Shown one piece after another: positions 1,085 through 3,731 of a stretch of 5,681 bases of DNA (positions within the stretch are counted from its first letter, which is position 1; every line of letters begins with the position of its first letter). Below the pieces are notes generated by a model. That model worked only from the letters and a program-made list of their open reading frames with translations, was not told where the DNA came from and searched no databases. This DNA comes from Planctomycetota bacterium (GTDB lineage Bacteria > Planctomycetota > Phycisphaerae > WQYP01): the NCBI GenBank assembly GCA_021805585.1, contig JAJZEY010000554.1:1-5681 (forward strand), in the 5' to 3' direction. A program made the translations under genes and the position numbers.

Positions 1085-2176
1085 ATGGGATTATTCGGTT
1101 TTAATGCGTCACGAATGGCCGGAGGCCTGTATTTTGGGCCGCCGGCGTGGCGCGTTCAAGCCTGGCCCAGCCTTCCGGCTTTTCCGGCGGATTCACGCAT
1201 TTCCGCCCGGCCTGTCCCGGAAGATCGCCCCGCTCTGGGCCGATTCCTTACCACTGTCTGCCCGGACGAAACGTCGCATTGGATGCCCGGCTTGCGCCAA
1301 TCCATTGAACAACTCGGCGACCGGCCCTGCAGGCGATTGGTGTTGAATTTGCTGGCCGAACAGCCGGAATCTCAATTAAATGCGGGGCTGACACTTTTTG
1401 CCATGAAGGAACTGGCCACCGGTCTGGCACTTATCGCGGCCTGTCTAAAACCGCAACAGGTGATTATTGCGGTCAATCGGCATGAAAAAGCAATGGTGCG
1501 AACCTGGCGTAACGAAGCGGCGGAAAAATCCTATCGCCTTGCACCACTGCTGGACCGTTACCCGCAGGTGCATCCGCTGCTATTGCTGCGGACCCTCTGT
1601 TCATCACATTTTTATGCCAATGAATCGCCGCTGGATCACGGGGTGATCTGCCTTGATGCGGTAACCTGTTGGGCTATCGGATGCGCGCTGATTAACGGTT
1701 CCGGACCTGGCGTGCGTCCAGTGGAAATTTTTTCCGACGGTGCCGAACCGGGAATCGTCTATGTCAAACCAGGAGAAAATATTGGGACAATTCTGGATGG
1801 TGCCGGTATCCAATGGCGGGGGCGCGACTGCATTGCCGATGGAATGCTGACCGGACAGCAGGTGGATCCGGAAATTGAGCGGACAAACTGGGCCACAAGC
1901 TCCCTTAGCGTGCGCGACCTGCCCGCTGTGGAATTAGAATGCGATTGCATCCGCTGCGGCTGGTGTGTAAGCGTCTGCCCGGTCGGCCTCAATCCGCTGG
2001 CGCTGATTGGCCAGTTGCGACTGGATTATCCGCCGATCAGTGAACAGGAAGCGACGGCTTGCGTGCAATGTGGACTGTGCAGTTATGTGTGCCCTTCACG
2101 TTTACCGCTTTCCAGTGGAATCAATTTGCTAAACGCACGAACCCATGCATTGGCCGGCAAACCGGAGCGGTCCTGA
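1085..2176 (+). CDS. Divergent, shortened RnfC-like iron-sulfur protein
   Basis: RnfC is the peripheral subunit of the Rnf membrane complex; canonical forms take electrons from NADH through FMN to two 4Fe-4S clusters. In this 363-residue protein the cluster motifs are intact: CIRCGWCVSVCP (Cys288, 291, 294, 298) and CVQCGLCSYVCPSRLPL (Cys326, 329, 332, 336). The middle region aligns by eye with RnfC: LDAVTCWAIGCAL (190-202) matches the NVGTAYAV segment, and KPGENIGTIL (228-237) follows. Only the trace MAGGLYFGPP (11-20) remains of the N-terminal GGIHPP motif. The roughly 90-residue barrel region and glycine-rich GAGFPT loop are absent, and NAAECEPYI is replaced by NLLAEQPES (88-96). ATG 1085 has only a weak GAG upstream, and ATG 1115 is an alternative start. 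The stop overlaps the RnfD-like start. The family call is strong, but canonical NADH/FMN activity is doubtful. Confidence 0.82.
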   Translation: MGLFGFNASRMAGGLYFGPPAWRVQAWPSLPAFPADSRISARPVPEDRPALGRFLTTVCPDETSHWMPGLRQSIEQLGDRPCRRLVLNLLAEQPESQLNAGLTLFAMKELATGLALIAACLKPQQVIIAVNRHEKAMVRTWRNEAAEKSYRLAPLLDRYPQVHPLLLLRTLCSSHFYANESPLDHGVICLDAVTCWAIGCALINGSGPGVRPVEIFSDGAEPGIVYVKPGENIGTILDGAGIQWRGRDCIADGMLTGQQVDPEIERTNWATSSLSVRDLPAVELECDCIRCGWCVSVCPVGLNPLALIGQLRLDYPPISEQEATACVQCGLCSYVCPSRLPLSSGINLLNARTHALAGKPERS

Positions 2177-3357
2177 TGATTCGGTCAGATACAGATACGC
2201 CGGCAACGGCTGCGCCAGTCCGGGAATCCGCCTCGTCCGCGCCTTATTTATTCTGGCCGGTCGCCAGGCGCGAATTTTATCAGTCCATTGCTTATTCCGC
2301 ATTGCTGCCATTGGCGTGGGGGCTGGCGGTTTTTGGATTTCGTGCGGCTTGGGTGATTGCGGCTTATTTCTTCGGCGCCGCGCTGACATATTTAATCCTG
2401 CGAAAGCTGTTCCAGCAGCGACTTAAACTGACCTTTCATCAAACACTCGCCGGCGCTTTTCTGGCGGCCGCTTTGGCTTACCCGCTGTTACCGTGGTACG
2501 TCGCGGCCGGGGCGGGCGTATTCATGACCGCGCTGCTCTGGTTGACCGGGCCTGTCCGCCGCGAGGGGATACATTTAAGTATTCTGGCCGCGCTGCTGGT
2601 GATGTTTATTTTTCCCACACCGGGCCATTGGCCGCTCCTGATGCGGAATCGACTGTTTTGGGGCGATGCGAGCCATTCACGACTGGAACGTGTTTACGCC
2701 TGGCCCACCGCGGGCGGATTTGTTCGAGCGGACGCGGTGCGGCTTCAGCCACCGGCCGTTGCCATCAGCTACCTTTACAAGCGAATCGCCCCGCACCCCG
2801 TAAGTCCGGCGTCCAGCCGTGCCATGCGGGTGGCCTTTGCCATGAACCTGCCATCGCCTGGCGCACTGGTGCTTGGAGGGGTCAGCGGCTGGACGGGGAC
2901 GGTGGGAATCCTGGCGATTTTTCTGGCCGGGCTATACCTGTCGTACCGGCACATATTGCGCCCGGATTCATGGGCGATTTTTCTCGCGGCTGTGTTGCTT
3001 GGACTGGTTTTTTGCCCGCTTTCACCCTATGTGTTTCACCATAATTTTTGGCAAAGCCTGGGCGGTATCTGGTATCTTCCTCCGGAACGCGCCATCGCAT
3101 TGCTGACTTATGAATTGTGCAGCTCGGACTTTATTTTCGCGTCTGTGTTTATTCTCGCGCTGCCTGGCACCCTGCCTATTGAACCAGCTGCCCGTCGAAT
3201 TTTCCTGCTTGTCGCGGGGCTGGCAGCCGCGTTCATTCATCGGCTGGATGTGCCGCTGCCCCCGGCCACGACCGTTCTGTTGGTTATGCAATCTTTAAGT
3301 CCATCCATGGATATGCTCCTGCATAAACGCACGTGGGCATTGCGCCGGGGAAATTAA
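2176..3357 (+). CDS. Divergent RnfD-like integral membrane protein without the covalent-FMN motif
   Basis: RnfD (NqrB family) is a polytopic inner-membrane subunit that normally carries FMN bound to Thr in a D-A-x-[ST]-[SG]-A-T-P motif. This 393-residue protein shows hydrophobic helices near residues 36-54, 57-76, 89-104, 106-124, 132-147, 241-257, 264-281, 306-330, 341-355 and 361-374. The best RnfD marks are VSGWTGTVGILAIFLAGLYL (236-255) and the C-terminal LLVMQSLSPSMD (368-379), matching the family's MNALTPLID end. At the expected flavin site it reads DAVRLQPP (186-193), with no Thr, and the NPAxxGRAFL segment is unrecognisable. The start at 2176 is preferred because GGAG lies 8 nt upstream and TGATG joins it to the RnfC-like gene; a longer in-frame ORF begins at 2059 inside that gene. 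It probably anchors the RnfC-like protein to the membrane. Membrane topology is secure; family is fairly secure; function is unknown. Confidence 0.75.
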   Translation: MIRSDTDTPATAAPVRESASSAPYLFWPVARREFYQSIAYSALLPLAWGLAVFGFRAAWVIAAYFFGAALTYLILRKLFQQRLKLTFHQTLAGAFLAAALAYPLLPWYVAAGAGVFMTALLWLTGPVRREGIHLSILAALLVMFIFPTPGHWPLLMRNRLFWGDASHSRLERVYAWPTAGGFVRADAVRLQPPAVAISYLYKRIAPHPVSPASSRAMRVAFAMNLPSPGALVLGGVSGWTGTVGILAIFLAGLYLSYRHILRPDSWAIFLAAVLLGLVFCPLSPYVFHHNFWQSLGGIWYLPPERAIALLTYELCSSDFIFASVFILALPGTLPIEPAARRIFLLVAGLAAAFIHRLDVPLPPATTVLLVMQSLSPSMDMLLHKRTWALRRGN

Positions 3358-3449: not shown

Positions 3450-3731
3450 ATGGTCGAAAGTCGAACGTTGCCCCTGGTTCAGTCCAGCCCGGAAGTGCCG
3501 CTCTGGGAGCGCGTACAGGCTGTCTTGGACGCGCTGCGCCCGTTAATTCAATGGGATGGAGGAGATATTGATCTTGTGGATGTCAGCACCGCGGGAGTCG
3601 TAAAAGTTCGCTTTCGCGGAGCATGCGTTGGCTGTCCAAGCTCGGATGCCACACTCCGACTCGGAATTGAAAAAAGTCTGCGGGAGAAAGTTCCCGAAAT
3701 TACGCAGGTTATTCCAGTGGAGGATGCCTGA
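3450..3731 (+). CDS. NifU C-terminal-domain (Nfu) iron-sulfur cluster scaffold/carrier
   Basis: Nfu proteins bind a 4Fe-4S cluster, usually between two subunits, and deliver it to target enzymes in the cytoplasm. The 93-residue product is a single Nfu domain: helix 17-34 (LWERVQAVLDALRPLIQW), the DGGDIDLVDV strand region (36-45), and the diagnostic GACVGCPSSDATLRLGIE (57-74) with ligands Cys59 and Cys62. These are followed by the usual LREKVPEITQVIPV end. It lacks the N-terminal NfuA A-type or NifU IscU domain, so it is a stand-alone carrier. ATG 3450 has AGAGG 4 nt upstream, closer than usual. The gene lies 92 bp after the RnfD-like gene, on the same strand but with its own promoter. It could supply clusters to the eight-cysteine RnfC-like protein; that link is inferred from position only. 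Confidence 0.93.
   Translation: MVESRTLPLVQSSPEVPLWERVQAVLDALRPLIQWDGGDIDLVDVSTAGVVKVRFRGACVGCPSSDATLRLGIEKSLREKVPEITQVIPVEDA

Follow-up and report, generated by a model that had tools for sequence, protein, structure and literature searches.

What can a pair of Rnf subunits do when the flavin sites of both are gone? The question is raised by a stretch of 5,681 nucleotides (the window, contig JAJZEY010000554.1) from a Planctomycetota bacterium of the Phycisphaerae, in which an RnfC-like gene and an RnfD-like gene stand together amid unrelated genes. In Rnf complexes electrons reach RnfC by way of RnfG, then the flavin mononucleotide (FMN) and the riboflavin of RnfD, and finally the iron-sulphur (Fe-S) clusters (PMC9588780, PMC11889175). 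The reading that we favour for the window's clade, with a probability of roughly 40%, is an Rnf-derived Fe-S and membrane conduit that would carry cytosolic electrons to a haem protein in the periplasm, a lipoprotein truncated haemoglobin (trHb). The genes of the pair are these:

1085..2176, + strand, RnfC-like gene (363 aa, P0001)
2176..3357, + strand, RnfD-like membrane protein gene (P0002; 393 aa from its ATG, PF03116)
2174..2178, + strand, TGATG, where the stop of the first gene overlaps the start of the second and couples them

This layout is as the initial annotation had described it, and a domain scan of the window proteins likewise found no RnfA, B, E or G gene. The predicted folds of P0001 and P0002 are those of RnfC and RnfD.

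Loss of flavin sites in both proteins

Comparisons were made with 150 genomes of the class to which G001, the genome of a named relative (locus L001), belongs; PF03116 was matched in 113 of them. We read one PF03116 match from each of 61 genomes, taken from the weaker and middle-scoring matches, together with the window and 30 canonical loci. The 62 stand-alone RnfD proteins (the window plus 61 of the 150 genomes) form a close set of 22 that includes the window, a divergent set of 20 and a middle set of 20, and the close family corresponds to 21 of the 150 genomes (E<1e-98). Row L031 was dropped from the RnfD counts and the tree, and L018 additionally from one conservation table. Those few relatives that carry organism names are Phycisphaerae or kin.

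P0001 matches RnfC models below their cut-off (TIGR01945, 1.2e-29) and gives a weak, sub-threshold match to the 51K FMN-binding domain (Complex1_51K). Its C-terminal part is a 2x[4Fe-4S] region, and two segments of the gene carry the comparison with canonical RnfC:

1946..2092, + strand, eight Fe-S cysteines in two CxxCxxCxxxC motifs
1274..1294, + strand, SHWMPGL (residues 64-70), aligned to the GGAGFPT loop of canonical RnfC

All eight cysteines are kept in 56/56 stand-alone RnfC proteins, the clusters being predicted from these motifs. The loop, written GGAxFP[TAS], is present in 29 of 30 canonical RnfC proteins (the other, L018, is truncated) versus none of the 56 stand-alone ones. Among seven stand-alone RnfC proteins tested for the RnfC_N domain, P0001, L073, L085 and L098 gave no match, and L100, L106 and L114 still matched it.

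P0002 passes the PF03116 cut-off (4.5e-14), which is its sole Pfam match, with no fused PF00175. Four of its residues bear on the two flavin sites of RnfD; their numbering is one above the count from the ATG.

2749..2751, + strand, Pro193, aligned with the FMN-acceptor Thr of RnfD
2572..2574, + strand, His134, placed by profile alignment to solved RnfD at the riboflavin-binding Asn (Acetobacterium woodii N123, Vibrio cholerae NqrB N203)
3160..3162, + strand, Leu330, aligned with the riboflavin-binding Asp (NqrB D346)
2437..2439, + strand, His89, one residue before alignment column 106

The acceptor motif [ST]x[AGP][ST] occurs in 29/29 canonical RnfD proteins (30 less L031) versus 1/62 stand-alone ones (L042). 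The acceptor column itself is without Ser or Thr in 58 of the 62, the exceptions being L001, L042, L104 and L116; a motif-like string is seen in L042 alone. Across 91 RnfD and 86 RnfC proteins the flavin motifs of the two subunits are kept or lost together, L042 again being the one RnfD exception. The losses that the initial annotation had reported in both subunits, alongside intact cysteines, are borne out by alignment and are not an artefact of its comparison by eye. In the canonical RnfD proteins of the class (L003-L032) the acceptor site mostly reads TQATP or a TAATP-like string, and not SGAT.

The riboflavin site is changed as well. Side-chain contacts to riboflavin are made by Thr162, Asn200, Asn203 and Asp346 in NqrB (PMC10643135) and by Asn123 and Asp249 in A. 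woodii RnfD (PMC11889175). At the Thr162 position the close rows have C, Y, G or S (Thr 0/22, Ser 4/22) versus T in 27/29 canonical rows, and at Asn200 they have Q, E, H or P (Asn 0/22) versus N in 29/29. The Asn203 position is H in 20 of the 22 close rows and N in two, versus N in 29/29; profile alignment to solved RnfD places this conserved His of the family at A. woodii Asn123. At Asp346 the close rows have L, M or F (Asp 0/22) versus D in all 24 canonical rows that reach the column, which was placed via row L005 and before which 5/29 canonical rows are cut short. Column 106, four before Thr162, is Ser in 29/29 canonical rows and His in 20/22 close, 20/20 middle and 11/20 divergent rows. 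The middle rows keep Asp or Glu (20/20) and Thr (18/20) at two of the riboflavin-ligand positions, and riboflavin may therefore remain in that set. Flavin loss thus looks stepwise and, as far as sequence can tell, complete in the window's clade.

A further change lies in the segment aligned with the loop between helices VII and VIII, which is extracellular in Clostridium tetanomorphum RnfD (PMC9588780). This segment is longer in stand-alone RnfD proteins and carries near-invariant FWQS and GGxW strings in the close family.

Conservation, selection and distribution

The RnfC-like and RnfD-like genes adjoin in 22/22 close-family loci (20 plus L038 and L042) and in 56 of the 62 stand-alone loci overall. 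One of the remaining six, L081, begins at a contig start; the other five are taken up below. In a quick tree a branch with 100% support in the Shimodaira-Hasegawa-like approximate likelihood ratio test (SH-aLRT) separates the canonical RnfD proteins from the rest, and another such branch sets off the 22 close rows. Ratios of nonsynonymous to synonymous substitution (dN/dS), estimated by the Nei-Gojobori method for 12 pairs, are 0.08-0.18 for the RnfC-like gene and 0.05-0.20 for the RnfD-like gene, with synonymous sites saturated in the pair formed by the window and L001. Both genes are under purifying selection. Together with the constant adjacency in the close loci, this supports well the earlier proposal of a derived system and not a decaying one.

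Genome-wide statements rest on the draft genomes of relatives, not on the window organism's own genome, and profile searches covered RnfA/E, FMN_bind and ApbE, not RnfB. Each of the 21 close-family genomes has exactly one PF03116 match, the RnfD-like protein. RnfA/E (PF02508) was found in 0/21 of these drafts versus 56/150 class-wide, FMN_bind (PF04205, the domain of RnfG) in 0/21 versus 62/150, and ApbE (PF02424) in 0/21 versus 79/150. The pair is thus conserved in genomes without an RnfA/E or FMN_bind match, and the situation that would have spoken for decay, a full rnf set elsewhere beside a degenerating copy, was not found in these draft genomes, RnfB lying outside the search. The ApbE result suggests that protein flavinylation by way of ApbE has been given up entirely in the close clade.

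A phylum-wide sample of 246 genomes gave 78 with a match, and the best 30 loci (30 genomes) of the 78 were read. Among these 30 the flavin-less form occurs only in G001, G054 and G061, all of which are in the class sample too. The other 27 RnfD proteins comprise 26 with a recognisable acceptor motif (one of them alignment-shifted) and L154. The RnfC loop is kept in 15/15 readable cases among those 27 loci; ten are cut before the loop and two show no RnfC. Within Planctomycetota, as represented by the best 30 of 78 matching genomes, the flavin-less pair seems confined to the class.

A lipoprotein truncated haemoglobin upstream of the pair in close relatives

The initial annotation had looked to conserved neighbours for a lead. 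No gene beyond the pair is constant among loci, although a neighbour that it did not predict recurs in the close family. The same called gene lies immediately upstream of the RnfC-like gene in 11/20 close loci, and coordinates from genome searches place it there, on the same strand, in 13/21 genomes. The gene caller missed some genes beneath longer antisense frames (the L064 globin is an example), and its neighbour counts are low estimates.

The product is a group-1 trHb. It passes the PF01152 cut-off (5.9e-14 and 1.2e-13) and its nearest solved chains are group-1 trHbs, the group of HbN and cyanoglobin, from which it differs in having an N-terminal lipobox and in its genetic linkage to the pair. 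The lipobox ends in Cys in 15/15 globins with an intact front, and the protein is probably exported and lipid-anchored. One His, which we take to be the proximal His, is invariant in 11/11 sequences. By eye, and with position B10 where we presume it to lie, the trHb genes of L063-L077 and L121-L123 seem to be without the Tyr found there in HbN, and the ligand chemistry of the lipoprotein may differ from that of HbN.

A profile of this lipoprotein trHb at E<1e-45 finds it in 17/21 close genomes and 0/129 others (weakest match 2.6e-49, next genome 3.2e-23). Fisher's exact test gives p 5.5e-19 for this contrast, a value to be read with the close rows being one clade and not independent. The stronger point is that the order trHb, RnfC-like, RnfD-like is retained while the outer genes differ. 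In G074 the trHb lies on a different contig, which is cut; G121 shows a fragment of it at the edge of a contig (5.4e-12), and in G145 the pair lies at a contig end.

A proposed electron route and its alternatives

In the conduit that we propose, the pair would represent a two-subunit derivative of part of the Rnf output arm. At the cytoplasmic face, the RnfC-like protein would take or give single electrons at its two predicted [4Fe-4S] clusters: with the FMN of RnfC lost, the two-electron NAD (nicotinamide adenine dinucleotide) site would be gone, and the clusters therefore open to one-electron partners. Its cytosolic partner is probably a ferredoxin-type protein. The loss of the RnfD flavins and of RnfG would likewise remove the known extracytoplasmic route. 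The RnfD-like protein would form the membrane part, its extracytoplasmic loops remodelled into a surface on which an external partner docks. In the close clade, where riboflavin ligands are replaced and His stands at or near the pocket, the bridge across the membrane could therefore be haem or quinone; an unrecognised flavin would also serve. The lipoprotein trHb is a concrete candidate for the acceptor, most likely the external partner in the window's clade, and would be kept reduced for O2 or nitric oxide (NO) chemistry. A stricter version of this scheme, in which the route is wholly free of flavin, with an Fe-S RnfC-like protein and an RnfD-like protein whose His-rebuilt pocket holds haem or quinone reducing the periplasmic lipoprotein haemoglobin in bacteria without protein flavinylation, strikes us as possible and somewhat doubtful.

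Several observations weigh against the conduit to haemoglobin. The close family is a single clade, so that co-occurrence of trHb and pair is partly inherited together. The trHb gene sits elsewhere in G041, in G115 and, on another contig, in G001, the window's nearest relative, and the profile search of genomes found no such trHb in G055 and G068. In the window no globin gene lies beside the pair, and no + strand frame of that size lies between the flanking symporter gene and the RnfC-like gene. Nor is there a globin match beside the pair in any of the 40 divergent and middle genomes. In none of the sets is a donor gene linked to the pair. Column 106, so often His, reads Gln in both the window and L001, the window having His89 next to it. 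In five of the 20 divergent loci (L084, L087, L088, L092 and L097) no RnfC-like gene was found beside the RnfD-like gene in the stretch fetched, even at full sensitivity. Finally, ApbE is present in 9/20 divergent and 11/20 middle genomes, so it is only for the close clade that flavinylation can be taken as absent. PF02508 was matched in one of 20 divergent genomes (G011) and 12/20 middle ones, and FMN_bind in 5/20 and 12/20, respectively; the middle pair therefore often stands alongside a full Rnf.

The nearest competitor casts the pair as an Fe-S protein (ferredoxin):quinone oxidoreductase, in which the RnfC-like clusters pass electrons to a quinone in the RnfD-like subunit and a periplasmic acceptor is unnecessary. 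In NqrB, riboflavin hands electrons to ubiquinone, which lies near the cytoplasmic face about 11.6 A from it (PMC10643135), and a His at a riboflavin-ligand position in the close family would suit such a pocket. The variation of neighbours over the class also fits a general membrane acceptor. This reading leaves the trHb-RnfC-RnfD order of 13/21 genomes unexplained, and we rate it unlikely.

An ordinary flavin and Fe-S conduit that lacks only the covalent FMN, with flavins held non-covalently at altered sites, would suit the Asp/Glu and Thr retained by the middle relatives and the sub-threshold Complex1_51K match of P0001; it has a precedent in Nqr/Rnf-like complexes without the Thr, in which a non-covalent site for flavin is apparently retained (PMC11334425). 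In the window's clade, however, four side-chain ligand positions are changed (only Asn203 is kept at all, in 2/22), and the GGAGFPT loop is gone from all stand-alone RnfC proteins, which makes this improbable. It is distinctly improbable, too, that the RnfD-like protein is a channel or transporter, as its fold's relation to Amt/Rh and urea channels might suggest, with the RnfC-like protein as an Fe-S regulatory or sensing subunit. That the pair is a decaying remnant of an rnf operon, as the missing subunits and motifs and the five RnfD-like genes without an RnfC-like neighbour could be taken to mean, is scarcely credible and was rejected on the dN/dS values of both genes and the conservation of the new residues, with frames open in 61/150 class genomes.

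Other genes near the pair

The left flank of the pair in the window is a Na+/solute symporter gene on the - strand. The right flank holds genes for an NFU/NifU-domain protein and a class V aminotransferase, as well as the beginning of a Fur-family regulator gene. The short NFU-type NifU-domain protein (3450-3731) lies directly 3' of the RnfD-like gene. Among the clustered loci this placement is common only to the window and L001, and the protein was set aside as a functional partner. A search for a plasmid origin gave no match.

In some middle loci, sequence reading names QueD (L103, L105, L106) and QueE (L105, L106) downstream of the RnfD-like gene, and a PpiC/SurA-type peptidyl-prolyl isomerase (PpiC lipoprotein) lies upstream of the pair in 6/20 (L102, L104, L106, L107, L110, L113), the L102 copy alone having been scanned against Pfam. 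Neither the QueE/QueD nor the PpiC link is general across loci, and both were discarded.

Relation to known systems

The closest known system is the RnfABCDGE ferredoxin:NAD+ oxidoreductase (C. tetanomorphum 7zc6, Azotobacter vinelandii 8ahx, A. woodii 9eri), with its RnfC-RnfD output arm. The pair shares with it both predicted folds, the gene order of the canonical loci read and the two [4Fe-4S] motifs. Unlike Rnf, it has no A, B, E or G alongside, its relatives' 21 genomes have no RnfA/E or FMN_bind match, and it is without the FMN loop and RnfC_N domain of RnfC, the FMN Thr of RnfD and, in the close clade, the riboflavin ligands.

The nearest described idea is that of the two-subunit Nqr/Rnf-like complexes, whose RnfD-like subunit also lacks the flavinylated Thr and for which one-way electron export has been proposed (PMC8238504, PMC11334425). 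Those complexes have a fused PF00175 NAD-binding domain and a flavinylated RnfG/NqrC-like partner, and lie within flavinylation gene clusters (PMC8238504, PMC11334425). In the present pair, by contrast, a separate Fe-S protein of RnfC type serves as the cytosolic module, and FMN_bind and ApbE went unmatched in the 21 close genomes. The Na+-translocating NADH:quinone oxidoreductase (Na+-NQR) shares the NqrB fold with the RnfD-like subunit, and its NqrA is homologous to RnfC but carries no cofactor (PMC12174285), whereas the RnfC-like subunit here retains the two Fe-S motifs, and genes for NqrC-F do not adjoin the pair. The fitting name for the system is Rnf-derived RnfC-RnfD pair rather than Rnf complex.

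The flavins of Rnf and Nqr are regarded both as a wire and as part of the coupling device. To our knowledge no case of the kind proposed here has been described, and a thin check of the literature found no earlier description of a flavin-less RnfC-RnfD pair. If the proposed conduit is correct, the Rnf scaffold would be rewirable without flavins, giving a natural experiment on the role that flavins play, and an exported truncated haemoglobin would gain a physiological source of electrons.
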